Source: Cyanobacteriota bacterium
GTDB taxonomy: Bacteria > Cyanobacteriota > Cyanobacteriia > Cyanobacteriales > Microcoleaceae
NCBI GenBank assembly: GCA_025362325.1
Contig: JANYGO010000127.1
Location: 1-39,144, forward strand
Direction of reading: 5' to 3'
Length of the DNA: 39,144 bases
The translations under genes were made by a program, and so were the position numbers. Positions 76 to 19,173 of this stretch are shown here, piece by piece. The notes beneath the pieces are model-generated. The model searched no databases and was not told the origin of the DNA. It saw only the letters and a program-made list of their open reading frames with translations. Numbering within the stretch: the stretch's first letter is position 1; each line of letters opens with the position of its first letter.

Positions 76-78
76 CCG

Positions 79-125
79 CCGACTGGAAGTCGGGGCTACA
101 CAAACAAAGTCCGCCTACGCGGACT
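79..125. repeat. double-hairpin interspersed repeat
   Basis: Two small hairpins lie side by side. CCGACT-GGA-AGTCGG is at 79-93 and AGTCCGC-CTAC-GCGGACT is at 108-125, separated by GGCTACACAAACAA. The same plan, a hairpin followed by GCTACACAAAC, recurs after pstB near 33941-33969, so this is a dispersed family and not a gene-specific element. It might terminate transcription of the upstream gene. Confidence 0.6.
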
Positions 126-130
126 GAAAA

Positions 131-213
131 ATAACTAATAACTAATGACAAATAACCAATAACAAATAACCAATAACCAATAACTAATAACTCATAACTC
201 ATAACTCATAACT
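131..213. repeat. heptanucleotide tandem repeats (STRR-like) up to the HAD start codon
   Basis: Variants of the 7-base units TAACTAA, TAACAAA, TAACCAA and TAACTCA are repeated end to end. The array runs directly into the ATG at 215, whose first codons ATG ACT match the TAATGACT variant seen in other arrays of this window. Short tandemly repeated heptamers of this kind are a known feature of filamentous cyanobacterial genomes. No Shine-Dalgarno sequence is visible inside it. Confidence 0.75.
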
Positions 214-214
214 A

Positions 215-934
215 ATGACTCTAAAAGCAGTTTTATTTGATTTTAATGGCGTCATGATTAATGACGAGCCGATTCACGAGAAAATAATCGATCGACTAAT
301 GCTCGATGAAAATCTCCAACTCAAACGCGGCGAGTTTCGAGAAGTTTGTTTGGGAAGGAGCGATCGCACTTACATTACGGATCTGCTGAAGCGCCGGGGA
401 CGATATCTGACAGAAACATACCTCGATCGCTTGCTGCTTGGCAAGGCCAAAGCTTATCAGGAAACAATAAACAGTTTGCAAACATTGCCAATTTATCCGG
501 ATTTGGCAGAATTTATTGACAAAATTCGGGTTTCGGGACTGAAAATGGCGGTAGTTAGCGGGGCAATGCGATCGGATATACAATTGGTGTTAGAGCGATC
601 GGGTTTGGCTGCAAATTTTGAGTTAATTGTCGCAGGCGACGACTTGACGGCGAGTAAACCAGAACCTGACGGCTATCTGTTGGCTGTGGAACTTCTCAAC
701 CAGAAATATCCCGGCTTTAACTTGCAAGCGATCGAGTGTTTGGCCCTAGAAGACACTTTTGCGGGGATTGAAGCGGCGAAAAAAGCGGGGATGCAAGTAG
801 CGGGAGTGACTCACACTTACCCGTTTCACATGATCCAGCGCCAAGCTAATTGGACGGTGGACTATTTTGCTGATTTAGAGTTGGACAGAGTAGCCCAACT
901 TTGCTCGATCGCCCCGACGCAGCCGGCTACATAA
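215..934 (+). CDS. HAD-superfamily hydrolase (phosphoglucomutase/phosphatase-like) with altered motif I
   Basis: The 239-residue product has the layout of a subfamily I HAD hydrolase (beta-phosphoglucomutase/phosphatase-like). Motif I is LFDFNGV with the nucleophile Asp9. It is followed by an alpha-helical cap (about 15-95), motif II VVSGAMRS near 113-120, the motif III lysine in SKPEPDGY, and motif IV LALEDTFAGIEAAKKAG near 178-194. The usual second aspartate of DxD, the general acid/base, is Asn11 here. It is therefore uncertain whether it is an efficient phosphatase, and the substrate cannot be read from the sequence. The start codon grows out of the upstream heptamer array. No alternative start with a ribosome binding site was seen. 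The gene stands alone, followed by tRNA-Ala. Confidence 0.85.
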   Translation: MTLKAVLFDFNGVMINDEPIHEKIIDRLMLDENLQLKRGEFREVCLGRSDRTYITDLLKRRGRYLTETYLDRLLLGKAKAYQETINSLQTLPIYPDLAEFIDKIRVSGLKMAVVSGAMRSDIQLVLERSGLAANFELIVAGDDLTASKPEPDGYLLAVELLNQKYPGFNLQAIECLALEDTFAGIEAAKKAGMQVAGVTHTYPFHMIQRQANWTVDYFADLELDRVAQLCSIAPTQPAT

Positions 935-1064
935 AAAACTTGACGTTTTTAGCCGTTACGTGCTAATGTGAGTGACGGTTTGAAAAATTAAGAGCAACTG
1001 CGAGCTGTAAGCTTTTAAGATTCGGCAATCGCGCATCTAAAATGCTTGCATTGAAAGTCAATCA

Positions 1065-1137
1065 GGGGAATTAGCTCAGTTGGTAGAGCGCTGCGATCGC
1101 ACCGCAGAGGCCAGCGGTTCGAGTCCGCTATTCTCCA
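1065..1137 (+). tRNA. tRNA-Ala (anticodon CGC)
   Basis: A 73-nt cloverleaf folds completely. The acceptor stem is GGGGAAT/ATTCTCC and includes a G3-U70 pair, the alanyl-tRNA synthetase identity element. The D arm is GCTC/GAGC and the anticodon stem is CTGCG/CGCAG. The loop ATCGCAC has U33 followed by CGC, the T arm is AGCGG-TTCGAGT-CCGCT, and the discriminator is A73. CGC reads the alanine codon GCG. The 3' CCA is not encoded. The HIP1 octamer GCGATCGC at 1093-1100 covers part of the anticodon stem and the whole anticodon. Confidence 0.95.
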
Positions 1138-1611
1138 TAAATCAGTGGACAGTTGACAGTGGACAGTTGACTCCGAAAGCAGTTGCAGACTAGGGGAATC
1201 AAACCATTTATGCTTGAGGGGTATCGGCTCTATTCATTCAGGTTATTTATGTCGGCGTCCGATGTGGCGGTTGCTATATTTGTAGAAAGGGCGATCGTCA
1301 CCTGCTCTGACATTTGCCTGTGAATGTGCGATCGACTCGGTTGGTGCCTAACTCCTAGCATCAATAACGTATTTCTCTAAAAACAGCGGGTTTCTAATTT
1401 CAGACTGATTGCTGAAATGACGTATCTTGGTGTCTAAACTCCATTTCGGCCACAGTTGCCATCAATCCCCACAAAACCTTAATTTTGTCAATCAATAATA
1501 AGTTTTGTATCTAAAGATACAACAGTCTTCTCAACCTAGTCTTAATATCAAGTCGCTATATGTTATTATTCTCAATCATCTGACTGAGCTATTTAAGAGT
1601 AACAAGAAAAA
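1138..1611. other. non-coding region between tRNA-Ala and urtA
   Basis: There is no supportable gene in these 474 bases. At 1143-1170 a 14-base unit, CAGTGGACAGTTGA, is repeated twice. A related GACAGTTGAC unit recurs between urtD and urtE. The stretch 1171-1500 shows no clear motif apart from scattered GCGATCG sequences. The last 110 bases hold the urtA promoter described separately. Confidence 0.7.
1505..1548 (+). promoter_or_regulatory. NtcA-activated (class II) promoter of the urt operon
   Basis: The 18-base palindrome TTGTATCTAAAGATACAA at 1505-1522 contains GTA-N8-TAC, the binding consensus of the cyanobacterial nitrogen regulator NtcA. A TAN3T-type -10 hexamer, TAATAT, lies at 1543-1548, exactly 22 bases after the TAC. 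This is the classical spacing of NtcA-activated promoters, in which the NtcA site replaces the -35 box. Transcription would start near 1555, about 57 bases before urtA. urt genes are known NtcA targets in other cyanobacteria. Use of this site here is inferred. Confidence 0.85.
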
Positions 1612-2931
1612 ATGACAAAGCGATTCGATCGGCGGAAATTTCTTTTATACGGTTCTGCTACCCTCACATCAAGTTTATTCCTCAAAGCTTGTAGAACTCC
1701 GACTCCAACAGCCACCCCAGCCGCTTCTCCAACAGCAACCGGATCGCCATCAGCAGCAGTCAGTGGAAACACGATAAAAGTAGGAATTTTGCATTCCTTG
1801 AGCGGCACAATGTCAATCAGCGAAAAAAGCGTTGTCGATGCCGAACAATTAGCGATCGAAGAAATCAATAAAGCGGGTGGCGTCCTCGGAAAACAAATCC
1901 AAGCAATAGTAGAAGACGGCAACTCAGACTGGCCAACTTTTGCCGAAAAAGCCAAAAAGTTGATCGATCAAGACAAAGTTGTCACCGTCTTTGGCTGCTG
2001 GACATCCGCCAGCCGCAAAGCAGTATTGCCAGTATTTGAAGAAAAAAATCATATGCTCTGGTATCCCGTACAATACGAGGGTCAAGAGTGTTCCAAGAAT
2101 ATCTTTTATACCGGGGCGGCGCCGAACCAGCAAATAGAGCCAGCAGTAGACTGGCTGCTAGAAAATAAAGGCAAAAAATTCTTCTTAGTCGGATCGGACT
2201 ACGTTTTTCCCCGCACCGCAAATACCATTATCAAAGCACAGCTAGCAGCCAAAGGTGGCGAATTAGTTGGGGAAGATTACATTCCTTTGGGAGGTACAGA
2301 AGTCACACCAATTATTACTAAGATTAAGGCCGCTTTGCCCGACGGCGGCGTCATTTTCAATTCCCTCAACGGCGACAGCAACGTCGCATTTTTCAAACAG
2401 TTGCAGGGTGCAGGTTTGGGCCCGGAAAAATATCCGTCCATGTCTGTCAGTATTGCAGAAGAAGAAGTAAAGGCGATCGGCGTAGAATATCTCAAAGGCC
2501 ATTACGCCGCCTGGAATTACTTCATGACTGTGGACTCTCCGGCAAATAAAAAATTTGTGGAAGCTTTCAAGGCAAAATATGGCAAAGATCGAGTGACCAA
2601 TGACCCGATGGAAGCAGCTTACATTATGGTTTACCTGTGGAAGCAAGCCGTCGAAAAAGCAGGGACAGCCGACGATTTGGAAAAAGTGCGGGCAGCAGCT
2701 TTGGGTCAAAGTTTTGATGCGCCGGAGGGCAAAGTAACGCTGGAAGCTAACCATCACCTTTCTAAATTTGTGCGGTTGGGTCAAGTGAGAGAAGACGGTT
2801 TGTTTGAAATCGCTTTTGCTACGCCAGAAGCAGTGAAGCCTGTTCCTTGGAATCAGTTTGTCGCTGAAACAAAAGGCTTTTCTTGCGATTGGTCAGACCC
2901 CGCAAAAGGTGGCAAATTCAAGACGAGCTAA
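1612..2931 (+). CDS. urtA: urea ABC transporter substrate-binding lipoprotein UrtA
   Basis: This 439-residue periplasmic binding protein of the branched-chain amino acid type (Peripla_BP) captures urea for high-affinity import. The N-terminus has twin arginines (Arg7-Arg8 in [10 protein letters not shown]), a short hydrophobic stretch and a lipobox ending at Cys27 (FLKAC). These suggest an exported lipoprotein, perhaps Tat-dependent. A Thr/Pro/Ala/Ser-rich linker follows (about 29-50), and the mature domain starts around [17 protein letters not shown]. Segments such as [18 protein letters not shown] and [18 protein letters not shown] are typical of UrtA. It is the first gene of the urt operon, behind an NtcA site, and is separated from urtB by 193 bases of hairpin repeats. 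That separation may let the binding protein be made in excess over the membrane subunits. Confidence 0.96.
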
Positions 2932-2970
2932 GTAAAGCAGAAGCAAGTTTGGCAACGAGCAATGTACGGG

Positions 2971-3081
2971 ATGTAACGGATGTAACGGATGTCAGTTTGT
3001 AGGGTGCGCAATGCGCACCTTATTTCTTAGATAACGGCGCACCTAAAAGGTGACTATTGGTGCGCAATGTGTACCTTACCC
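2971..3081. repeat. GTAACGGAT tandem repeat and GGTGCGCA hairpins in the urtA-urtB spacer
   Basis: Three ACGG-GATGTAACGGATGTAACGGAT units lie at about 2967-2990. They are followed by GGTGCGCA-A-TGCGCACC at 3003-3019 and a related GGTGCGCAATGTGTACC at 3060-3076, with GCGCACCTAAAAGGTG between them. The GTAACGGAT motif recurs at 19174 and 30738. A GGTGCGTCGC inverted repeat lies at 27744. Placed inside an operon, the hairpins could stabilise urtA mRNA ends or attenuate transcription into urtB. That role is inference. Confidence 0.6.
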
Positions 3082-3124
3082 CCTTACATAACTGCACCAA
3101 ATATAGAAAAATAGGAGTAAAAAA

Positions 3125-4285
3125 GTGCTGAGTGGCTTATTGGACGGTTTATTTAACGGCATTAGCATCGGCGCTGTTTTACTAATTGCAGCCCTGGGAT
3201 TAGCGATTATTTTCGGGTTGATGGGCGTGATTAATATGGCTCACGGCGAATTGATGATGCTGGGGGCTTATACAACTTTTGTAGTGCAGAATGTCTTCAA
3301 AGGTATCGGCGGATTTGCCTTTGAAATGTATATTTTATTTGCCATTCCCCTAGCTTTTTTAGTAGCGGCGCTGGTAGGATTAATTCTCGAACGCGGAGTG
3401 ATTCGCCATCTCTACGGGCGGCCTCTAGAAACTTTGCTGGCGACGTGGGGCGTAAGTTTAATTTTACAGCAGTTTGTCCGCAGCGTTAGTTGGGTGCTGG
3501 TAACGGGGATTGCGGTGTTTTGTTTGCTATTTTTTGGCGGCTTGCAGGTGCTGAAGCGACGCCCGGATTTCGATCGCACTCGCAGCACATTTATCGCCAT
3601 AATTTTACCTCTATCTTTGGGTATTTCCTGGGCTGTCAGCGCACTTTTAAGCGAAACTTACAAACTCGCAGTAACTCAACCTTGGTTTGGCGCTCAAAAC
3701 GTTGATGTGACTGCGCCTGCATGGCTGCGCGGCGGCATCCCGCTGGGCAATTTTCAACTCCCCTACGCCAGACTTTTTATTATTGCGCTGACAGGAGTTT
3801 GTTTGGCGGGAATTTACCTATTTTTGCAAAAGTCTGTGTGGGGATTGCGGATTCGCGCTGTGACGCAAAATCGCAGCATGAGCGCGTGTTTGGGAATACC
3901 TACCGAGCAAGTAGATGCGCTGACTTTTGCTTTGGGATCGGGGTTGGCGGGTGTGGCTGGGTGCGCGATTAGTTTGATTGGTTCCGTAGGGTCAAATACC
4001 GGACAAAATTATATAGTCGATACTTTTATGGTTGTGGTTGTGGGCGGTGTCGGCAAGATTGTCGGGAGTGTAGTTGCTGCGATGGCGATCGGCACTGCAA
4101 ATTACCTGATCGGTTCGGGAACTTTAGCAATAATGTTCGCTCCTGTCAAGCCCTTAGCTGATTTTTTCACATTTTTTGCCACAACCAGCATGGCAAAAGT
4201 GATGGTATTTGCCTTAATTATGGCTTTCCTGCAAGTGAAACCCGGAGGAATTTTCCCGCAGAAAGGACGCACGGTTGAGAATTAA
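3125..4285 (+). CDS. urtB: urea ABC transporter permease UrtB
   Basis: This 386-residue inner-membrane permease is of the LivH/UrtB family. It starts with GTG, and AGGAG at 3113-3117 is correctly spaced to support that start. The N-terminal part LFNGISIGAVLLIAALGLAIIFGLMGVINMAHGE and the C-terminal AGVAGCAISLIGSVG and VVVVGGVGKIVGSVVAA are family hallmarks. Relative to short bacterial LivH proteins there is an extra hydrophobic segment at about 120-190, between the SLILQQFVR and FGAQNVDV motifs. That segment has a charged turn, LKRRPDFDRTR. Cyanobacterial UrtB proteins of about 385-390 residues also carry such an insert. Together with UrtC it forms the channel for urea. Confidence 0.96.
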   Translation: MLSGLLDGLFNGISIGAVLLIAALGLAIIFGLMGVINMAHGELMMLGAYTTFVVQNVFKGIGGFAFEMYILFAIPLAFLVAALVGLILERGVIRHLYGRPLETLLATWGVSLILQQFVRSVSWVLVTGIAVFCLLFFGGLQVLKRRPDFDRTRSTFIAIILPLSLGISWAVSALLSETYKLAVTQPWFGAQNVDVTAPAWLRGGIPLGNFQLPYARLFIIALTGVCLAGIYLFLQKSVWGLRIRAVTQNRSMSACLGIPTEQVDALTFALGSGLAGVAGCAISLIGSVGSNTGQNYIVDTFMVVVVGGVGKIVGSVVAAMAIGTANYLIGSGTLAIMFAPVKPLADFFTFFATTSMAKVMVFALIMAFLQVKPGGIFPQKGRTVEN

Positions 4286-4310
4286 TAACTACAGGTTTGA
4301 GCGAAAAACA

Positions 4311-5453
4311 ATGGAGAATATACAACGAAAGGCACTGGTAAAAGAAGCGGCAATTGTCGGGGCGATCGCCCTAATTGCGATATTGCTCGTCCCAGGAATA
4401 GTTCCTGACGCTCGCCTCAACCAATTGGGACGATTTTTAGCACTAGCAATTGCAGCCCTCGGTATAGACTTAATCTGGGGATACACGGGTTTGCTCAGTC
4501 TGGGACACGGCGTATTTTTTGCGATCGGCGGCTACGCATTCGCCATGTACCTAAAACTGCAAATTCCCCCAAACGCCAGCAGTCAATTGCCCGAATTTAT
4601 GAGCCTCTACGGCGTCACCGAACTGCCTTGGTTTTGGCAACCATTTTACTCTTTTCCCTTCTCAGTCGTCGCAGTATTCCTAATACCAGCCATCTTGGGC
4701 GGAATTTTAGGTTACTTAGTATTCCGCAATCGAATTCGAGGCGTTTACTTTTCAATTCTCACCCAAGCAGCAACAATTGTATTTTTTAACTTCTTTAACG
4801 GCCAGCAAAAACTGATTAACGGCACCAACGGACTCACCGACTTTAAAACCCTGTTCGGAGCCACAGTAAATGGCCGAGATACTCAATATATTTTCTACAT
4901 TCTCACCATATTATTTCTAGTAGCAACTTACGCCCTGTGCCGCTGGCTGACAAGCGGGCGTTTCGGGCGCTTGCTACTAGCAATTCGCGACGACGAAGTG
5001 CGCCTGCGTTTCTCCGGCTACAATCCCACAGGATACAAAGTTTTAGTATTTGCAATATCCGCTGGTTTAGCCGGGATTGCAGGCGCATTATTCACCGTAC
5101 AAACCGGAATTATTTCGCCGAAAGCGATGGATATTGCATTTTCGATCGAAATGGTAATTTGGGTAGCAGTCGGAGGCCGCGCCACATTATCGGGAGCAAT
5201 ATTGGGCGCGCTGCTAGTCAACTTTGGCAAAAGTTTCTTGAGCGAACAATTTCCAGAAGTCTGGCTATTTTTCCAAGGTGCGCTATTCTTAATAGTAGTC
5301 ACAGTCCTGCCCGACGGCTTAGTTGGATGGCTGCAAAATCACGATTTTGAACACATCCGCCGCCTGTTCAAAAAACCAAAGTACGCATCTACTTACCCCA
5401 GCCTGGAACAAGACCCCGAAGTACAGCTCGAAAAAGAAGAACTTGAACATTGA
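4311..5453 (+). CDS. urtC: urea ABC transporter permease UrtC
   Basis: This is the second permease of the urea transporter (LivM/UrtC family), about 380 residues from the ATG at 4311. The frame is open back to a TTG at 4275 that overlaps urtB by 11 bases. The ATG is preferred because the added residues are polar and unlike the family start. However, AAAGGA at 4261-4266 would suit the TTG start, so the choice is not certain. Family motifs include LGIDLIWGYTGLLSLGHGVFFAIGGYAFAMYL, VYFSILTQAATIVF, RDDEVRLRFSGYNPTGYKV and VGGRATLSGAILGALLVNF. About nine hydrophobic segments can be seen. The C-terminus is an acidic cytoplasmic tail. Confidence 0.94.
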   Translation: MENIQRKALVKEAAIVGAIALIAILLVPGIVPDARLNQLGRFLALAIAALGIDLIWGYTGLLSLGHGVFFAIGGYAFAMYLKLQIPPNASSQLPEFMSLYGVTELPWFWQPFYSFPFSVVAVFLIPAILGGILGYLVFRNRIRGVYFSILTQAATIVFFNFFNGQQKLINGTNGLTDFKTLFGATVNGRDTQYIFYILTILFLVATYALCRWLTSGRFGRLLLAIRDDEVRLRFSGYNPTGYKVLVFAISAGLAGIAGALFTVQTGIISPKAMDIAFSIEMVIWVAVGGRATLSGAILGALLVNFGKSFLSEQFPEVWLFFQGALFLIVVTVLPDGLVGWLQNHDFEHIRRLFKKPKYASTYPSLEQDPEVQLEKEELEH

Positions 5454-5543
5454 ATGCTCAAAAATGATATGCGGTATGCTGGCGGATTTCCAACTAAAGA
5501 TTTTGTAGTAAAATACTCAGTTACTTAACTGGTGGGACAACAT

Positions 5544-8216: not shown

Positions 8217-8924
8217 TTATTGCTTTTTGCTGCCGTCTGGCATTGTTGTACCTCCCATGCTGGCTCGATCGATACTAGCGCCATCTATATTAGCATTGCG
8301 GAGGTTGGCATTTGACAGGTTGGCGTCTCTGAGGTCGGAAAATCGCAAATCTGCGCCGTCTAAATTGGTTCCTGTCAAGTTGGCTTTTCTGAGGTTGGTG
8401 TTGCTGATTCTGGCTCCGATTAATTCGGCGCCGCTTAAGTCTGCGCGAGCTAGGTTGGTGTTGACAAAATCTGAGATCTCGAAACGGCTGCCGCTGAGGT
8501 TGGCGTCTGATAAATCTGCTCCTGTGACGATCGCATTTTTTAAGCGAAGGTTAATTAATTTTACGGCTCGGAGGTCGCAGCGGGCGCAACTTTGAGTTAG
8601 CAGCAGTGTTTCGACGTTGGCGTTGATTTGGTCAATTTCTTGCTGGGAGAATTTTTCGGCAAATTCGGGGGAGACGTAGCCTAGTTTTTTGGGATCGTCT
8701 GCTTTTGGTTGGGGTGTTGGTGTTTGGGGTGTTGGTGGTTGAGTTGTTGGTGGTTGGAGTGTTGGTGGTTGGGGTATTTGTGGTTGGATGATTTGTGGTT
8801 GAGGTGTTTCTGGTTGGGATGTTGGTGTTTGGGCGATCGCTCTTAGTTGCAGTCCCGCCTTCCGATATTCTAGAGTTGCGGCAAAAATTAGCAGGGCGAT
8901 CGAAAATATTGTGATTTTTTTCAT
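8217..8924 (-). CDS. secreted or membrane-anchored pentapeptide-repeat protein
   Basis: The product has about 235 residues from the ATG at 8924. The frame extends 18 codons further upstream, but MKKITIFSIALLIFAATLE at the chosen start is a normal signal peptide or anchor. Next comes a Pro/Gln/Thr-rich linker (about 35-75) made of PQ-PT repeats. A short domain containing QSCARCDL follows, and then about 18 A(D/N)Lxx pentapeptide repeats (ANLSGS, ADLSGA, ANLTGT, ADLRFS, ANLRNA), predicted to form a right-handed quadrilateral beta-helix. Such proteins are abundant in cyanobacteria and their roles are mostly unknown. The Pro-rich linker is encoded by imperfect tandem DNA repeats and is likely to vary in length between strains. 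Confidence 0.85.
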   Translation of the reverse strand: MKKITIFSIALLIFAATLEYRKAGLQLRAIAQTPTSQPETPQPQIIQPQIPQPPTLQPPTTQPPTPQTPTPQPKADDPKKLGYVSPEFAEKFSQQEIDQINANVETLLLTQSCARCDLRAVKLINLRLKNAIVTGADLSDANLSGSRFEISDFVNTNLARADLSGAELIGARISNTNLRKANLTGTNLDGADLRFSDLRDANLSNANLRNANIDGASIDRASMGGTTMPDGSKKQ

Positions 8925-9005
8925 AATTTTTTTGCAAATATACCATTCATATTGTATTGCGTGGTGCGCATTAAGCAAGAAAGGTGTACCATAAACACCC
9001 TAAGT

Positions 9006-9476
9006 TTAAGTAAATAGATCCAAATTTAGATAAAAAACTTCGGAACCGTCGGGTGCGCGAATCAACTTTTCTATTACTAAAGGTAGTTGCTGTTTGCGGT
9101 ACAATTCTGGAATTTCGCAGAAACTTTCTTCGCTAATTTCTAAAATCTTCGGCATATCAGGAATGGGAATTCCCAAGCGAGCGCTCTTATTTAAGCTGCA
9201 AACAATCAAGTAGTTGCAGTCAGCAATGCTCCGACTGCTGGGAAATATTGTGGATAAATTTATCAGGGTAATCAGTTCTTCTTGGTGCCGCACTAAACTT
9301 TGACCGCTATCTAAAAAACCGTAGGGATTAAAGTCTTTGACAACGCGCTGCACTTTTTCTATAGGAACCGCATAATTAACGTTTCCCAGTTCAAAGGAAA
9401 CAAGTTTTCTCGGAGGCGTTCTGACAGCGCCTTGTTTATTGCTGCGAAAACGGCGATTATAATTTGCGTGAGTCAT
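9006..9476 (-). CDS. CheW-domain protein, last gene of the chemotaxis cluster
   Basis: This 156-residue protein has a CheW-like fold (about 22-155), recognised by LVSFELGNVNYAVPIEKVQRVVKDF, LITLINLSTIFP and LGIPIPDMPKILEI. CheW proteins couple chemoreceptors to CheA. A basic N-terminal extension, NYNRRFRSNKQG, precedes the domain. It lies 148 bases downstream of the CheA hybrid kinase on the same strand, with a spacer of tandem repeats. It is more divergent than the other CheW (17877-18374), with the conserved NLRG replaced by NLST. It may therefore tune CheA activity and not simply duplicate the first adaptor. Confidence 0.85.
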   Translation of the reverse strand: MTHANYNRRFRSNKQGAVRTPPRKLVSFELGNVNYAVPIEKVQRVVKDFNPYGFLDSGQSLVRHQEELITLINLSTIFPSSRSIADCNYLIVCSLNKSARLGIPIPDMPKILEISEESFCEIPELYRKQQLPLVIEKLIRAPDGSEVFYLNLDLFT

Positions 9477-9624: not shown

Positions 9625-12444
9625 TTAATGTTTGATTAATTTGGGAATAGCTTCTAAAAGTTGGGCTTCGCTGTAAGGTTTGGTGAAATATTGATTGGCA
9701 CCCAATTCCATTGCCATTTGCCGATGTTTTTCGCCGCTGCGGGATGTCAGCATGGCTACGGGAATCTTAGCAAACCGCTGGGTCGATCGCATAGAGCGCA
9801 ATAATTCAAATCCATCCATCCGGGGCATTTCAATATCAACAATCGCCAAACTGCAATCCAGACCGTTTTGCAGCTTTTCCAAAGCATCCAGCCCGTCTTT
9901 AGCCTGCACGACTCGGTAGCGGGCACGAGTCAGCATCAGAGACAGCAACTGCCGAATGGTATAGGAATCGTCCACTACCAAAATCTGGGGTGACTGACTC
10001 GAACTCGGTGCCATATGCGGCGTTGTACCGGACACAGGGGCGATCGAACTATTGACAGCAGAAGGTTGACCCACCAAATCATCCACATCCAAAATAGTTA
10101 CAACTTTGCCGTCCCCCAAAATCGTACTCCCCAAAACCCCGCGAGGCTTGGATAGAGGCGGCGGCAAAGGTTTAACCACAATTTCCTGCTGACCGATCAG
10201 CCGTTCCACCGCTACCGCCAGCATTCCTTCACTAGAAGCCAAAACCAAGACAGGAATGTGGTCTTGGGTCAAAGGGTCAGGAGAGGGAGCATCCGGGCCG
10301 ACGACGCTGTATTCGAGCAAATCTTGCAGCCGCACCAAACGAATAAATTCCTCCCGCCACCACAGCATCGGCTGATTCCCGGCGGTGTGAACTTCCGAAG
10401 CTTTGATGTGGAGAATCTCCTCGACTGCATCCAGCGGCACTGCTATTTTATTATGATCGGTCTTCACCATCAAAGCGTCAGTAATCGACAGCAACAGCGG
10501 CAGCTTGATGATAAAACTCGTACCTTTTCCCAGGCGAGAATCCACCTTCACAGTTCCCCGCACAGTCCGCAAATTCGTTCGCACCACGTCGAGTCCGACT
10601 CCGCGCCCCGAAAGGTCGCTGACCCCTTCTGCGGTGCTGAAACCAGGCCAAAACAGAAAATCGTAGAGTTCGGCAATGGAAAATTCTTGAGCTTGTTCCT
10701 CTGTCGCTAAACCTTTGTTGACAACTTTGCGGCGGATGATTTCCGGGTCAATGCCTTTGCCGTCATCGGCGACAGTAATAATAGTTTGGCCGCCTTGGTG
10801 GCGGGCTGCTATTTCAATTTGACCGCTGGCGGGCTTACCTGTGGCTTGCCGAACTTCGGGCATTTCGATGCCGTGGTCGAAAGCGTTTCTCACTAAGTGT
10901 ATTAAGGGGTCGCGCAAAGCGTCGAGCAAACTTTCGTCAATTTTGGTATCCCTTCCCACTAACAGCAGGTTGACATCTTTATCGTAGGTGAGGCACATAT
11001 CTCGAAGCGCCCTGGGTAAGTGATCTACGGCGCGGCTGAAACTCACGACTCGCAACTGCATGACGCGGCTGCGGAGTTGTTCGGTAATACGGCGCAGTTG
11101 GTCGGTACTGCGCTCGAATTTCATGGCTAGGAGGTCTAATTTGGTGGCGGATTGTGAAATTGCTTGGGCGGTTTCGATGACTTCAGAGGCTGTAGAGTGG
11201 AACTCTGTATAACGATCCATCTCTAAGATATCGAAGTGAGTATGGGCGATCGAGGATTTGCTATTAGCAATCAGTGGAAATTCTATTTCAGATGCTGCAA
11301 GTTTTTGTAATCCCGAATTGCCGTTTCCCCCTCTCCAATCTGCAAAACTCAGTCTGTCGTATTCTTCGCGCAACTGGCCGCCGAATTGGTTCAAATCTAC
11401 GATACTGCGGCGGATGCGCTTGACTTCGCCGCGCAGTTCGGATTCTTGAAGTTCCAAATTTGTACGGTTGATGACTAATTCTCCGACTAGATTTACCAAT
11501 TCTGTTAAGCGTTCTAAGTCTACGCGGATTGTTGGTCTTTGCGGGTTGGGAACTGGATTTAGAGTGGGAGTTTTGGAGAGTTGAGGATGAGGTGAGTGAG
11601 GGGTTTCCGATGTTTTGGATATTTCTACTTCTGATGCGTTTTCGGCGGGTGCGGGGGAGATTTGGGGGAGTTCGATCGCCCTTCCGTCTAATAGTTGCTG
11701 GCGTGCGGTTTGCAAATTTTGGGCGATCGCCCAACCCTCGGACTGGAGGCGTTCTAAAGTCAAGTCTGGAAAATCGATCAAATCTCTCAGGGGTGCAGCG
11801 ACTTTCCCAAAATCGGGCAATTGCAGCATTCCAGCCAAGCCGGAGAGTTGATAATAAACCTGGTTGAGGGCGGTGACGCTTTTTGCTAAATCTGCCTCAG
11901 AAGCTTGGGAAAGTTCGGTTTCCAGGCGATTGAAGATTGGCGGCAATTCGTGTTCAAAAATCAGTTTTAGGGTTTCCGGGGCTGCCGATCGACTAGCTGC
12001 GGGAACTGGTGGCGGTTCTGGTTTGCCGTACTTGGCCTCGAACTCGCCGTGAATTTGGGCGATCGCCTCCAAGTTTTCCGTTTGATCTGGAGTGATGATA
12101 TCCGAGTGCTGAATGGATTCGGTCGAAATTTTTTTGAGAGTATCCACCCCTTGCAGCAAAACAGTTACAGTAGCCGGTTCCAGGGCCGACAAGTCCGTGC
12201 GATCGCGCAAAATGACAAAACAGTCCTCCAGCGTGTGAGCAGCCGCCGACACGTTTTGAAACCCCAACATCGAGCCCGCACCTTTAATCGAGTGAGCGCC
12301 CCGAAACATTTCTTTAACAGCAGCCTGTCGCCCTTTCAAATCTGCGCCTTCCATCGCCAGCAGGTGAGTCTCCATTGACTGAAGAAACTCTTGGGTTTCT
12401 GCGGTAAAAGCATCTATTAATTCGTTTAAATCATCGTCATTCAT
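9625..12444 (-). CDS. CheA-type hybrid histidine kinase with C-terminal receiver
   Basis: This 939-residue kinase is of the chemotaxis/twitching-motility class (PixL/PilL-like). The HPt domain (about 1-110) has its phosphorylated histidine at His51 in FRGAHSIKGAGS. A variable linker with an additional helical segment (about 150-310) follows. The dimerisation region begins at TIRVDLERLTELVNLVGELVINR. The ATPase domain shows HLVRNAFDHGIE (N box), VADDGKGID (G1) and GRGVGLDVV (G2). A CheW-like domain spans about 655-790, and the receiver domain (821-939) has Asp870 in AIVDIEMPRMDG and Lys922 in FTKPYSE. This architecture relays a receptor signal to a CheY. The gene lies between the giant receptor gene and a second CheW gene on the same strand. 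Confidence 0.94.
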   Translation of the reverse strand: MNDDDLNELIDAFTAETQEFLQSMETHLLAMEGADLKGRQAAVKEMFRGAHSIKGAGSMLGFQNVSAAAHTLEDCFVILRDRTDLSALEPATVTVLLQGVDTLKKISTESIQHSDIITPDQTENLEAIAQIHGEFEAKYGKPEPPPVPAASRSAAPETLKLIFEHELPPIFNRLETELSQASEADLAKSVTALNQVYYQLSGLAGMLQLPDFGKVAAPLRDLIDFPDLTLERLQSEGWAIAQNLQTARQQLLDGRAIELPQISPAPAENASEVEISKTSETPHSPHPQLSKTPTLNPVPNPQRPTIRVDLERLTELVNLVGELVINRTNLELQESELRGEVKRIRRSIVDLNQFGGQLREEYDRLSFADWRGGNGNSGLQKLAASEIEFPLIANSKSSIAHTHFDILEMDRYTEFHSTASEVIETAQAISQSATKLDLLAMKFERSTDQLRRITEQLRSRVMQLRVVSFSRAVDHLPRALRDMCLTYDKDVNLLLVGRDTKIDESLLDALRDPLIHLVRNAFDHGIEMPEVRQATGKPASGQIEIAARHQGGQTIITVADDGKGIDPEIIRRKVVNKGLATEEQAQEFSIAELYDFLFWPGFSTAEGVSDLSGRGVGLDVVRTNLRTVRGTVKVDSRLGKGTSFIIKLPLLLSITDALMVKTDHNKIAVPLDAVEEILHIKASEVHTAGNQPMLWWREEFIRLVRLQDLLEYSVVGPDAPSPDPLTQDHIPVLVLASSEGMLAVAVERLIGQQEIVVKPLPPPLSKPRGVLGSTILGDGKVVTILDVDDLVGQPSAVNSSIAPVSGTTPHMAPSSSQSPQILVVDDSYTIRQLLSLMLTRARYRVVQAKDGLDALEKLQNGLDCSLAIVDIEMPRMDGFELLRSMRSTQRFAKIPVAMLTSRSGEKHRQMAMELGANQYFTKPYSEAQLLEAIPKLIKH

Positions 12445-12753: not shown

Positions 12754-15700
12754 CTAACTGCGGAAATTTGCCACAGACTTTTGCAATTTTTCAACAGAAC
12801 CGGACAAATCATCTAAAGATGCCTTAACATCCGAACCCTTTTGTGCAGTCGTATTCGCAATCTCATTGACTTGCTGCATACTGTTAGAAATTTCTTCAGC
12901 CGAAACAGTTTGCTTCGCCGAGGCGCGAGTAATATTCTGCACCAAAGCATTCATTTCTCGACTAACTTCGATGATGGCATTCAGGTGAGTTTTAGCTTCG
13001 CTGGCTAGTTTAGTGCCTTCGACTACCTCCAAAGTTCCCGATTCCATTGCTTTCATCACGCGACTGATTTCTTCTTGAATTGTACCGACAATTTCGGAGA
13101 TTTCCTCCGTCGCACCTGCCGATCGTTCTGCCAACTTCCGCACTTCTTCGGCGACAACTGCAAAACCCAAACCTTGTTCGCCGGCGCGGGCGGCTTCAAT
13201 GGTAGCATTGAGAGCTAACAAATTCGTTTGGGATGCAAGTTGAGAAATAGAAGTAACAATTTTGCCGATTTGTTGGGAAGATTCGCCCAAGCGCTTCATC
13301 ATTTTTGAGGTAGAGGCGATCGTCAATCGGAGCCCGTTAATGCCTTCGACAGCGCGATCGACCGCCATACCGCCGACTTCAGCAGTGTGAGAAGACTGCT
13401 GGGCGACTGTTTCAGCCCGCACCGAAACATCTCGCACGTCGCGGATCGAATTCACAATCCGCTCGATTTCCCGCATGATCGCAGATATTTTTGTTGCTTG
13501 AACTTCCGCCTGTTGGGTGAGTTGGCTGGTATTGCTGATTGACTCGCCGGTGGCAGATGTTACCTGTTCGGCTAAAGTTTGAATCCCCGTTACCACCTTC
13601 CGCAGAGAACCGATTAAGAAGTTAAAAGAGTCGGCGACAGCACCTAAAACATCGTTAGTCACTTCCGCCCTGACTGTCAAATCGCCTTGAGCCGCGCCTT
13701 TAATTTCTCCCAACAATTTGAGGACTTGCTGCGTCATCGAATCAGCTTCAGCTTTGCGTTCTGCGGCCAATTTTTCCAGTCGTTCTTCTGCCTCTTTGCG
13801 CTCGGTGATGTCAAAGCGGATGGCGATATATTTGACTATTGTGCCGCTGGTATCGAATATGGGGGCTATCGTCGAATCTACCCAATAAAATGAGCCATTT
13901 TTAGACAGATTTTTGATTTCTCCTTTCCACACCAAACCGCGAGAAAGTGTCAGCCACATTTCTTGAAAAAATGATTTGGGATGATAGCCGGAATTGATTA
14001 GCCGGTGGTTGCGGTGCAGGAGTTCTCCCATGCTGTAACCGGATATTTCAGTGAATCTGTCGTTGGCGTAGGTAATCATGCCTTTGGGGTCAGTTTCGCT
14101 GACGATCGCAGCTTCGTCTAGGGCATTTTGCCGCGTTTTGAGTTCTTGCAGCAAACGTTGCTGTGTCTCGGCCAACTGCTGCATCTGCTGCTGGGATGCT
14201 TTTTCCTGGGTGACGTTGCGGCAAACGACTACACCGCCTTTGAGGGCGCCGGTTTCGTCTTTGAGCGGCCGGCCGTTAACTTTTACCCACAGGCCATCAG
14301 GCTTGGCTGCGTGCCTGGTGAACAGCTCTATGTCGTCAACTGATTCTCCTCGAATTGTCCGCGATAAAGGTATGTCGGCTGCGGGATAGGGAGTGACTGC
14401 ATCGGGCAAAAATAAACCGTATTTTGCCGACCACTCATCGGGGAGAGTGTCTGTAGAACCCATGCCAAAGATATCTTCAGCGGCGGGGTTGAACAGGAGA
14501 AAATTGCCTTTTTCGTCGGCAGCAACTACGCCATCGGTGATGTTGTCAATTAGCAGTTGCAAAAGATTGCTTTGTTCCCTGAATTCGGCTTCGGAACGGG
14601 CTAATTGTGATGTTGTTTGTTGTAATTGAGCAATTGCGTGTTTGCTTTCGGTAATGTCGCGAGCGACTGCATACATAATCTTTTCTTCGGCTAAAGGTCG
14701 CGTTTTCCACGAGAGCCATTTGTAGGAACCGTCTTTGCAGCGGTAGCGATTTTCAAAAGCCATTACTTCGACGCCGCTGGCTATTTTGGCCATTTCTGCT
14801 AAGGTTTTTTCGCGATCGTCTGGATGGACGAAATCGAGAAAAGATCGCTCTTGCAGTTCTTCTGGCCTGTAGCCGATCGTGCTTTCCCAAGCGGGATTGA
14901 CGCGCTTGAATTTGCTTTCAAAATCTGCTATGCACAGCAAGTCGAGAGACAGGGTGAAAAACCGATCGCGCTCTGCTTCGGCTTTTTTGCGATCGGTAAT
15001 TTCTACTGCTACTCCGCCGACGCCGATCGGCTTGCCGTCCTCACCGGGCAAAGGAAAGTAAGACGCCAGCCAATCTCGAATCGCGCCCGATTGGTTGACA
15101 GTTGTACCCGACACCTCAATGTTTAAAAACGGTTCGTTGGTGGCGAGAATCTGCTGCAACATCGGCTGTAGGGTATGAACCATTTCGGGTACAACTTCCC
15201 TCACCGTTTTGCCGAGGTGTTCGGCAACTGATGCACCGGTAGTTTCGGCCAATTGCTCGTTGACTTGCACGAACCGCAAATGGTCGTCAAAGATAAACAT
15301 TGATGCCGGGGCGGCTGCGAAAAATGCGTCAAAGCGGGCTTGACGCAAAGCGAGTTCTCGTTCTAGGTTTTTGCGATCGCTGATGTCGCGAGCTTCTGGA
15401 ATTAGGAGCACGACTTTGCCGCTGTCGTCTTTGATGGGTTTTAGGGAGAAGTCCACAGTCATCACAGCACCTCCAGCAACCAGCACGTCGGCTTCGTAGC
15501 GGACAAATTCGCCGGCGGCGGCTGTGACGACTGCAGCTTCAACTTTTTGCTTGGCTTCTGGGGAAATCTGCCACCACAGATTGTCGGCAAACTGAGTACC
15601 CACGAAGTCTTCGCGCCCGAGTCCGGCGGCTGTCATGGCTGTTTGGTTGGCTTCCAAAACGGTGCCGTCGGGTTCTAGCAGCCCGACTAATTGGAACGAT

Positions 15701-17742
15701 TGGTCGAAAATGGCTCGGAACAGTCTTTCGCGATCGCGCAGCATTTCTTCTGCCCGCTTGCGATCGCGAATGTCGCGGGTAACATTTGCTACGCCTACAG
15801 CTTCGCCTGTTTCTGGGTCTTTGACGGTAAATAAGGTAAAGTCAACGGGAATGTTTTCGCCGGTTTGAAAGTTTCTCAACCGGAATTCGCCCTGCCACAA
15901 GCCATCTCGCACGGTAGCAGGCATAATCTCTTCTATGAGTATTTTCGCGTCTTCCTTCGAGAAGCAGTCAAATATACTTTTGCTTTTGACTTCTTCAATA
16001 TTTTGAAGTCCGACTAGCTTCATTCCAGCCGGATTCAGGTATGTTGACTGTCCCTCCATTGATGCTAAGCCGATAAAATCTGAGCTGTTTTCGACGATCG
16101 CAATCAATCTTTGGTTTTCGATTTCAGCCAGCTTGCGCGCTGTAATGTCGTTGTTAATTTCTAAAATTGCTTTGGGTTTTCCCTGTTTGTCCCGCTGCAA
16201 AGTCCAGCGGCTAAATACAGTAATTTTGGTGTGGTAATTGGTGGTGTGAATCACTTCTCCTTCCCAATAATCCTGCTGTTCTAGCTGTGCTGAAATTGTT
16301 TCTAAAGGTTGGGAAAATATCGTATCGAACAGGGTGTGAGTAACTTTTTCTAAAGCTTCTTGTTTTTTCCAGCCGTATATTTTTTCAGCGCCTTGGTTCC
16401 AGTAATCAATCGTACCGTCTAGCTCTCGAATAATCAAAGCATCGCTGGCTAGGTCGAGCATTTGCAAGTTCTGCTCCAAGGCTTGCTCCGCGCGCTTGCG
16501 GTTAGCGATGTTGCGGGCGATAGTTGATAGAAATTCAACTTCTCCATTCTGGGATTTGTGAGCAATAATTACTTGAGAAACTGGTATTTCTTCGCCGTCT
16601 AAACTCTGCCAAATTGTCTCGCCGCTCCACACCCCATCTCGGCAAGCTGCGGGGATGCCGACGTTCATAATAGTATCGACACTTTTGGGCGATGTCACGT
16701 CGGAAATGCTGACTTCGGCTAAATTTGCCTCCTCGCCAACTTTTAACATTTCCCTGGCCGCGCGATTGAGATAAATGGTGTGCTGCTGGGAGTCTGTCAT
16801 CCCTACCCAGTCTGTTGTCGCTTCTAAAATTGATTTGAGGCGTAATAGCTGCTGTTCGACTGCGCTGCGATCGCGAATTTCCTGTTCCAATTGTGCGTTA
16901 GTTTGCAATATCTGCTCGGTTCTTTCATTGACTCGCTGCTCTAGTTCTGCTGTTAGCTGCTGCAAGGCCGATTCTGTCTGTTTGATTTGAGTAATATCGC
17001 GACCTTCGGCGAGGATTTGGAATACTTCTCCTGCTTCATTTAATAAAGGTTTAAAGGACAGGTCAATTACTGTCACCTGATTGTTAGCTCCGGTGATTTC
17101 GTATTCTTCTCGGACAAATTTGCCGGCAGAAACTTGTTGGATGTTAGTTTTTAGGCGTTGCTGGTTGGTTGGGGATGATGCCCACCAGGGTGTATGCCAA
17201 AATTTTAGCCCCAGCACTTCTGATGCTTCCAAATCGCCCAACTCCAGCGCTGTTTGATTGGCTTCGATCAGAGTACCGTCTGGTTCCAATAGCGTTATTA
17301 ATTGAAAAGCTCGGTCGAAGATTGCCTGAAATCGCTGGGTAGTTTCGCTGAGTGCAAGTTCAGTGTCTTTTTTAGATTGCAGGATTTGGGTGGAACCTAC
17401 TAATAGACTGTAGCGGTTGGAGAGACTTAAAAAGGCGATCGCCGGAATTACAGTAATCCAATCGGACATAGTTTGCAAAACAGGCGAATGCGGCAATCCT
17501 AAGTGTTCCGCGGCGTGGCCGCTATGCCCGAAGGCACAACTCCAAAATATAAGTGCTGTAACGGTAGCGAAAGTGTCGAAACCGAATTCGCGATTTCGCC
17601 ACAAGCCCAAGGTAATCAGTGAGGCGATCGCAAAGTAACACAAAGAAATGATAGAATTCGCTACACCAATCAGCAGCGGTTGGGAGATGTCAGGTAATGT
17701 CAGGGTGAATGTCGTTGCACAAAAGTAATAGAGAAGCTGCAT
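12754..17742 (-). CDS. giant PAS-rich methyl-accepting chemoreceptor with ethylene-receptor-like membrane sensor
   Basis: This 1662-residue receptor has an N-terminal membrane region (about 20-120) of three hydrophobic helices. Asn29, Tyr36, Cys69 and His73 (CAFGH) match the spacing of Asp25, Tyr32, Cys65 and His69 in the ethylene-binding domain of plant ETR1. Nine PAS/PAC units follow (beginning near 137, 305, 425, 545, 670, 795, 920, 1055 and 1190), with a coiled coil at about 255-305. A HAMP-like segment (about 1325-1380, [22 protein letters not shown]) leads to an MCP signalling domain (about 1390-1662). The hairpin tip of that domain is [30 protein letters not shown]. It should cluster with CheW and activate the neighbouring CheA. 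The C-terminal receptor half resembles PixJ/PilJ-type phototaxis receptors, but no GAF/bilin domain is visible. The ligand is unknown. Confidence 0.92.
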
Positions 17743-17752
17743 AAGTTAGTGG

Positions 17753-17875
17753 TTATTTGTTATTTGTTATTTGTTATTTGTCAACAGTTAACAGTTAACA
17801 GTTAGTGGTTATTTGTTAACAGTTAACAGTTAACAGTTAACAGTCAACAGTTAACAGTTAACAGTCAACTGTTTA
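17753..17875. repeat. TTATTTG and AACAGTT tandem repeats
   Basis: The whole spacer between the CheW gene and the receptor gene consists of 7-base units: TTATTTG copies (17753-17780) and then AACAGTT/AACAGTC copies (17781-17871). The units read into the stop region of the CheW gene. They belong to the same STRR-like class as the other arrays in the window. Confidence 0.85.
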
Positions 17876-17876
17876 A

Positions 17877-18374
17877 TTACCAGCGATCGGAATGGGCGAT
17901 CGCTTCTACATCGACTATCATTAGCAAGCGTCCTTCGGAATTGTACAGGCCTTTTAAGAATGGAGCTAAGTCGGGACTGACATCTATAGCCGAGACAGTG
18001 CGATCGGGATTTAGGGATAAAACTCCTTCGACGCAGGAGACGGCCAATCCCATCCGCATTCTAGACAACCTCACATCTCGCGGATCGGGCGCTTCCACCA
18101 CTAAGATGCGGCTGCTTGGGTGGTGGGTATCAACCGGCTCGATACCTGTAAACCGTCCGAAGTCTGCGGCGGCTAAGATTTCGCCCCGCAAGTTGGTTAA
18201 TCCCAGCAAAAATGCCAGGGTGTTGGGAACCGGGGAAATCGGTTGTTCGCTGAGGGACAGCACTTCCCGCACTGCTTCTAATTCTATGCCGAACAGACTG
18301 CCTCCTTGACCGAACACGAGAAATTGCTTTGTCGGGCTTGTTCCAGTCGCCGCGGCTCTAGCAGTTGTTTTCAT
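17877..18374 (-). CDS. CheW-domain adaptor protein
   Basis: This 165-residue CheW-like adaptor (domain about 18-155) shows FLVFGQGGSLFGIELEAVREVLSLSE, LLGLTNLRGEILAAADFGRF (with the canonical NLRG) and MGLAVSCVEGVLSL. It would link the downstream receptor to the CheA kinase, as PixI/PilI do in Synechocystis. It is separated from the receptor gene by 134 bases of heptamer repeats and follows a CheY gene. This order, CheY-CheW-receptor-CheA, matches the cyanobacterial tax loci. Confidence 0.9.
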   Translation of the reverse strand: MKTTARAAATGTSPTKQFLVFGQGGSLFGIELEAVREVLSLSEQPISPVPNTLAFLLGLTNLRGEILAAADFGRFTGIEPVDTHHPSSRILVVEAPDPRDVRLSRMRMGLAVSCVEGVLSLNPDRTVSAIDVSPDLAPFLKGLYNSEGRLLMIVDVEAIAHSDRW

Positions 18375-18619: not shown

Positions 18620-18985
18620 TTATGCTGAAAGCAAGCGCTGCACGATGTTGACGAGTTGCTGAGGTTCAAAGGGTTTGCTGACATAAGCGTCGGCGCCTAA
18701 ATCGGTTCCCCAAGCTTTATCGATATCAGTGTTTTTATGAGTACAAAATACTACTGGTAGGTGTGCAGTTGCGCGATCGCCCCGCAATTCTCTGATCACT
18801 TCAAATCCGTTCATTCGCGGCATCACTACGTCTAAAACGACGAGATCCGGCGGCACTTCTCGGATCAGGGCGATCGCTTCTTCGCCGTCTCCAGCCCGGA
18901 TCACCTGCATTCCAGCATCTTGCAGAATGCGGCAGATGATTTCTAGTTCGCTGGGAACATCGTCCACTACTAAAATTTTTGACAT
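18620..18985 (-). CDS. CheY/PilH-like single-domain response regulator
   Basis: This receiver-only protein of about 121 residues has ILVVDDVPSELEII at the N-terminus, phosphoacceptor Asp52 in LVVLDVVMPRMNGFEVI, and Lys in YVSKPFEPQQL. The frame is open further upstream, but AAGGAAG lies 9 bases before the ATG at 18985 and the family start coincides with it, so the short form is chosen. It is the first gene of the minus-strand signalling cluster and is the likely output of the downstream CheA, controlling type IV pili or a similar motility apparatus. The 245-base gap to the CheW gene holds an imperfect GAAACCC/GGGTTTC hairpin (about 18555-18586). Confidence 0.9.
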   Translation of the reverse strand: MSKILVVDDVPSELEIICRILQDAGMQVIRAGDGEEAIALIREVPPDLVVLDVVMPRMNGFEVIRELRGDRATAHLPVVFCTHKNTDIDKAWGTDLGADAYVSKPFEPQQLVNIVQRLLSA

Positions 18986-19173
18986 AATTCCACACTTCCT
19001 TACTGTTTTCGACTGCGGACGATCTTGATTTAGAACTTGGCGCGATGGCTTTCGCCCCGCTTCGCCCCGCTTTAAATCGAGGCGAACGCTACGGCTGTTT
19101 GACTGCGCCGCGCCAGCGAACAAATATCATCTACTTCCAAATACAATATAGCCGGTCGCATAGCTGAAGGGAA

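Follow-up and report, generated by a model that had tools for sequence, protein, structure and literature searches.

A putative metal-type sensor related to the ethylene-receptor domain heads a cyanobacterial chemotaxis receptor

The receptor and its membrane domain

What does a chemotaxis receptor sense when it carries at its head a membrane domain that keeps the copper-ligand positions of the plant ethylene receptor ETR1 and replaces other residues that are essential there? The question is raised by a 39,144-nucleotide stretch of DNA from a cyanobacterium of the Microcoleaceae (the window, meaning the whole stretch that was analysed), in which a first-pass annotation had noticed a methyl-accepting chemotaxis protein (MCP) of 1662 residues whose Tyr36, Cys69 and His73 are spaced as are Tyr32, Cys65 and His69 of ETR1, and which has Asn29 at the position of Asp25. 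Both observations are confirmed in the translation, where the distances N29-Y36 (7), Y36-C69 (33) and C69-H73 (4) equal those of D25-Y32-C65-H69, positions being matched on what we take to be the ETR1 numbering of Asp25, Tyr32, Cys65 and His69. Tyr32 is essential in ETR1. D25, C65 and H69 are named as ETR1 residues in excerpts of PMC11819568 and PMC12643061, and Pro36 and Ile62 are given as essential in an excerpt of PMC6586836.

The answer with the best support is a membrane sensor, built around a metal or a polar core, that would feed a chemosensory pathway. In its more specific form, towards which we lean slightly, the domain would be a three-helix membrane sensor of ETR1_N ancestry, set in a separate clade, with a rebuilt metal-type site at the head of the Che pathway. 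The MCP signalling domain occupies residues 1446-1628 (PF00015, E 1.2e-40) and Che proteins lie on both sides of the gene (Table 1), which upholds the view that a methyl-accepting protein is here wired to Che genes.

Table 1. Features of the receptor locus, in window coordinates.
Feature	Position	Strand	Basis and remarks
CheY-like response regulator	18620..19123	-	PF00072, E 1.2e-27
CheW	17877..18374	-	PF01584, E 3.5e-25
Whole receptor, MCP	12754..17742	-	1662 aa; sensor domain, about nine PAS stretches, MCP signalling domain
ETR1_N-like three-helix sensor domain (MCP residues 1-125)	17368..17742	-	PF25487 match under cut-off, relatives, AlphaFold2 model
Helix 1 (residues 21-49)	17596..17682	-	Model helices, conservation; bears N29 and Y36
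N29 codon	17656-17658	-	Helix 1
Y36 codon	17635-17637	-	Helix 1
Helix 2 (residues 57-80)	17503..17574	-	Model, conservation; bears F66, C69, H73, H76
C69 codon	17536-17538	-	Helix 2
H73 codon	17524-17526	-	Helix 2
H76 codon	17515-17517	-	Helix 2
Helix 3 (residues 87-96 and 98-106)	17425..17484	-	Model, conservation; bears Q90, D94, T97
D94 codon	17461-17463	-	Helix 3
CheA hybrid kinase	9625..12444	-	Hpt, dimerisation, HATPase, CheW and receiver domains
Second CheW-like protein	9006..9476	-	PF01584, E 4.1e-8; seen in L100, L111
Pentapeptide-repeat protein	8217..8978	-	PF00805, E 4.7e-26; seen in L100, L111

The AlphaFold2 model of the sensor domain, which is fairly confident (best mean pLDDT 84.3 and pTM 0.71 from a 24-row alignment, the five models ranging from 77.2 to 84.3), predicts the helices of Table 1 and with them the three membrane helices of ETR1_N. 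When the conserved residues are placed on these predicted helices they fall, in each helix, within an arc of no more than 80 degrees. Against solved structures the model found nothing at E <= 0.001 with Foldseek, and a sequence search of the same kind of target gave no match at E <= 1 for either the new clade or the ETR1_N-type family.

A caveat of the first-pass annotation, that the DNA around the CAFGH codons looks repeat-like, fails, since TGCCTTCGGGCATAGC occurs exactly once in the window, with one further match at three mismatches (0.26 expected). The sensor domain is also under purifying selection, with dN/dS of 0.09-0.155 against eight orthologues, and repeat-derived codons are rejected on these two grounds.

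Ancestry and spread of the domain

How firmly can the domain be tied to ETR1_N (PF25487)? Residues 1-125 match this family alone in Pfam, at E 0.0019 and 18.9 bits against a gathering cut-off of 27 bits, and match nothing in NCBIfam at E <= 0.1. Taken by itself the match would be weak, because a membrane segment elsewhere in the genome reaches 16.2 bits in an own-genome PF25487 search in which the sensor domain scores 18.4. Together with a weak profile-profile score between the clade and ETR1_N (hhalign probability 28-29%, P 6e-4, one of the two alignments spanning helices 1 and 2 only), these values are what speaks for the view that the two are unrelated three-helix membrane domains which look alike by chance, a view that we consider very improbable. 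Against it, ETR1_N is matched at E <= 0.1 by 26 of the 29 family members in set A2 (window included, each scanned alone, best 5.3e-7), reciprocal profile matches are ETR1_N domains, and L039, alone of ten relatives tabulated, clears the cut-off at 30.3 bits (24.5 within its whole protein). An HMM of 22 ETR1_N-type domains scores the clade's 31 representatives, which include four chosen by motif, at between 1.0 and 17.7 bits; nine of the 31 exceed 10.9 bits, the top score among 3100 shuffles, and 22 do not, while reversed copies reach at most 4.8 bits and 127 other hydrophobic windows at most 9.0. A chance match is rejected on the family-wide Pfam matches and these controls. Other sensor families are likewise rejected on the NCBIfam result and on the scatter of the remaining Pfam matches at E <= 0.1 among the 29 members (DUF6404 in three, ten further families in one each). 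It is the family-wide matching that settles the homology, and on sequence comparison the sensor domain is of shared ancestry with the ethylene-receptor domain.

The domain is placed in a separate cyanobacterial clade, outside that of ETR1_N, by a tree of 31 clade and 41 ETR1_N-type rows in which the two sets, defined beforehand by score, split at 100/100 over only 108 columns with a bootstrap that is not settled. Among 59 genomes searched for relatives, 29 match, comprising the genome itself, 26 of 28 from the same genus and two of 30 from beyond it. Wider searches give counts that are lower bounds, with 11 first-look candidates scored per genome in the class search and 16 in the order and phylum searches: 22 of 388 genomes match in the class, two of them (L054, L055) carrying ETR1_N-type domains instead; 41 of 291 in the order, seven being ETR1_N-type by reading and score; and 11 of 292 in the phylum, including three weak matches outside the class (L168-L170), two with internal stops. 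All seven order-search matches with an E value above 1e-5 are ETR1_N-type domains at a protein's N-terminus. Of 242 class genomes, 136 have ETR1_N itself, and the new clade is therefore much rarer. Named relatives at 73-91% identity mostly bear the label Microcoleus, with Tychonema, Lyngbya, Richelia, 'Phorm 6' and members of the Oscillatoriales, Oscillatoriaceae and Microcoleaceae besides, and the window probably comes from Microcoleus in a broad sense. The scan of named genomes, which demanded the motif [LAG]IFxSC[ASG][LF]GH, returned 30 loci, all cyanobacterial by title, and these are excluded from the representative counts given below.

The genome itself holds one copy of the query domain. 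A PF25487 search at E <= 10 finds seven places in it, five of them above the cut-off (86-151 bits), so that ordinary ETR1_N domains are present in the organism as well. One of these above-cut-off domains (L034, C136:14958-15251) has Thr for Cys65, Cys for Tyr32 and no Lys91, and is probably not an ethylene binder. Among the open-licence literature matches listed (titles and abstract starts) nothing concerns the clade or an MCP of this kind, which is weak evidence of absence; the libraries searched give the clade no name, and what appears to be new is that it has a conserved site of its own.

The rebuilt site and its ligand

Which residues define that site? With the motif-selected loci set aside, the remaining 63 unique sequences reduce to 27 representatives at 70% identity. 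The equivalents of Tyr32 and Ile35 are kept (Y36 in 27, I39 in 23), and so in most are N29 (25), C69 (22), H73 (24), H76 (23), Q90 (25), D94 (24) and T97 (20). At the Pro36 position Pro is found in none and Ala, Ser, Gly or Thr in all 27 (Ala40 in the window), the Ile62 position is Phe in all 27 (Phe66 in the window), and the Lys91 position is Asp in 24, Asn in two and Val in one. The comparison set of ETR1_N-type domains, 45 rows of which two are truncated repeats of others, has Asp (38) or Asn (6) at the Asp25 position, Pro36 in 43, Cys65 in 42, His69 in 43, Glu (24) or Asp (17) three residues after His69, and Lys (37) or Arg (5) at the Lys91 position. Judged by these counts, therefore, the helix-2 acid became His, the helix-3 base became Asp and Asp25 became Asn, so that relative to ETR1_N there is, at the level of aligned residues, a reciprocal acid/base exchange between helices 2 and 3. 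The alignment of D94 with Lys91, and of T97 with the ETR1_N Thr, is given by both E-INS-i and hhalign, the latter setting N29, Y36, C69, H73, H76, D94 and T97 on the Asp, Tyr, Cys, His, Glu, Lys and Thr of ETR1_N; an earlier L-INS-i MAFFT run, unlike these two, put D94 four residues off the Lys.

The reading of a three-helix membrane domain of the ETR1 type that retains both Cu(I) ligand positions and has Asn in place of Asp25 stands, and the doubt that had been raised over the Asn was well placed. The expectation that homologues would keep the Cys and His gives a mixed result, with the Cys absent from five of the 27 and His73 from three. His76 and Asp94, to which the first-pass annotation had drawn no attention, are kept about as well as Cys69. 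Two clade members (L088, L089) have lost C69, H73, H76 and D94 together and keep Asn29 and Tyr36. Other losses are unlinked: L090 is without H73 and H76 and has C69 and D94, and L087 is without H76 and D94 and has C69 and H73. Natural Asn at the Asp25 position is seen in six ETR1_N-type domains (L055, L091, L093-L095, L099), four of which (L055, L093-L095) also have Arg at Lys91.

Could the cell steer by ethylene, as had been proposed? In this reading Cu(I) would sit on C69 and H73, with Asn29 lowering the affinity, and C69, H73, Y36 and I39 do match residues essential in ETR1. An excerpt of a 2026 review (PMC13012798) has the conserved aspartate, which we read as Asp25, changed to Asn in a receptor that is functional at about 100-fold lower affinity, Asn occurs naturally in six of the 45 ETR1_N-type rows, and cyanobacterial phototaxis is described as altered by ethylene in an excerpt of PMC6682694. 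An excerpt of PMC11819568, however, reports that D25 mutation abolishes binding; modelling described there pairs D25 with K91 and has it position H69. Here Pro36 and Ile62 are replaced in all representatives, Lys91 has given way to Asp in 24 and His76 has been added in 23; the Cys is missing from five, and the genome already has its five ETR1_N domains above the cut-off. Ethylene is disfavoured as ligand because three residues essential in ETR1 (Asp25, Pro36, Ile62) are changed and Lys91 is lost. The proposal is accordingly unsupported: a low-affinity ethylene receptor is improbable, high-affinity ethylene sensing is unlikely on these residues, and the domain probably senses something other than ethylene.

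A buried Asn/Tyr/His/His/Asp network could act without a metal, as a protonation or hydrogen-bond switch for pH, for membrane energy state or for a quinone-like molecule. H73, H76 and D94 are found together in 23 of the 27 representatives, against 22 for Cys69 (all four together in 20), and three of the five that lack the Cys (L028, L038, L085) keep the other three residues. What tells against a metal-free switch, which we regard as unlikely if somewhat less so than ethylene sensing, is the position of Cys69 itself, at a copper ligand, in 22 of 27 representatives and in all 27 genus copies read. A metal centre is plausible from the residues present.

In the metal-centred reading, the first 120 or so residues would form a three-helix membrane sensor with a rebuilt site, in which the helices may gather N29 and Y36, C69, H73 and H76, and Q90, D94 and T97 in the core. 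C69 and H73, aided by H76 and D94, would bind a soft metal, with Cu(I) the likeliest ion, and helix 3 would be shifted either by a small molecule that is not ethylene or by the metal's redox or occupancy state. The signal could then be relayed by the PAS chain and the MCP hairpin and, by way of CheW, reach the CheA hybrid kinase and the CheY-like regulator, whose output, to go by the Che genes, may bias surface motility. More tentatively, the copper site of ETR1 may have been rebuilt as an Asn/Tyr/Cys/His/His/Asp centre with acid and base exchanged, which would let gliding cyanobacteria direct their movement according to a new small molecule bound to the metal, or according to metal or redox state; we hold this to be possible rather than probable. 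The clade offers a natural experiment in which the Cu ligand positions are kept, Asp25 and Lys91 are replaced, and a His and an Asp are added. It bears on what else the ethylene-receptor fold senses and on how its site was tuned to ethylene, it yields residue predictions for the standard ethylene-binding assay, and, with a chemotaxis pathway downstream of the fold, behaviour provides a simple read-out.

The chemosensory cluster and known systems

On the minus strand the genes run in the order CheY-like, CheW, MCP, CheA hybrid, CheW and pentapeptide-repeat protein, the last belonging to the cluster by position only. Of 15 Microcoleus-type loci (L100-L114), 14 have a CheW gene immediately upstream of the orthologous MCP, the exception being L106, which begins at a contig end and has no sequence upstream. 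Eleven of the 15 show the CheY-like gene; it is absent from L101 despite 1.7 kb upstream of CheW, and L103 and L110 have little or no sequence there. The CheA gene is found downstream in nine of the 15, a count limited by the ends of L105, L107 and L110 inside the MCP and of L109 249 bases after it; in L106 and L112 there is no CheA match in the 4-5 kb downstream of the MCP. In L106 the orthologous MCP frame (76-5468) is split into two overlapping ORFs. In the window, 7-base tandem repeats (GTTATTT x4.3 and AACAGTT x13, 17744-17873) take up the greater part of the spacer that separates the CheW stop from the MCP start.

The domain heads an MCP in Microcoleus-type genomes and histidine kinases in the ten clade proteins scanned from outside the genus, all ten of which have HATPase_c and HisKA and none an MCP domain. 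As a clue to the ligand, the neighbours of the kinase members (ten genes at seven loci) have no common theme: two are without a Pfam match, L115 and L116 adjoin recombinases, L117, a kinase member of some 420 residues from Nostoc sp. FACHB-110, has NdhN and an ABC transporter next to it, and the rest include other kinases, an AAA protein and an ATP-grasp protein. The recombinase adjoining the kinase member in two genomes is a serine recombinase of 429 residues (L115, 11262-12551; L116, 11460-12749).

How does the locus compare with known systems? The order CheY-like, CheW, MCP, hybrid CheA is shared with cyanobacterial chemosensory clusters of what we take to be the Pil/Pix kind, and the difference lies in the MCP, which in the window has an ETR1_N-like domain at its head and then about nine PAS stretches. 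TlpQ of Pseudomonas aeruginosa, which is reported to be linked to ethylene chemotaxis, is also an MCP; it differs in that the excerpt of PMC6234866 mentions no ETR1-type domain, and describes a ligand-binding domain that binds histamine and polyamines and gave no ethylene binding in titration. With the ETR1_N domains of Arabidopsis ETR1, Synechocystis SynEtr1 and Azospirillum AzoEtr1 the new clade has in common an N-terminal three-helix membrane domain and the equivalents of Tyr32, Ile35, Cys65 and His69. It differs from them in (i) Asn for Asp25, (ii) Ala, Ser, Gly or Thr for Pro36, (iii) Phe for Ile62, (iv) His76 for the Glu or Asp three residues after His69, and (v) Asp94 for Lys91, so that helix 3 reads DxxT rather than KxxT; the window domain, moreover, lies under the Pfam cut-off, and its clade is placed apart from theirs.
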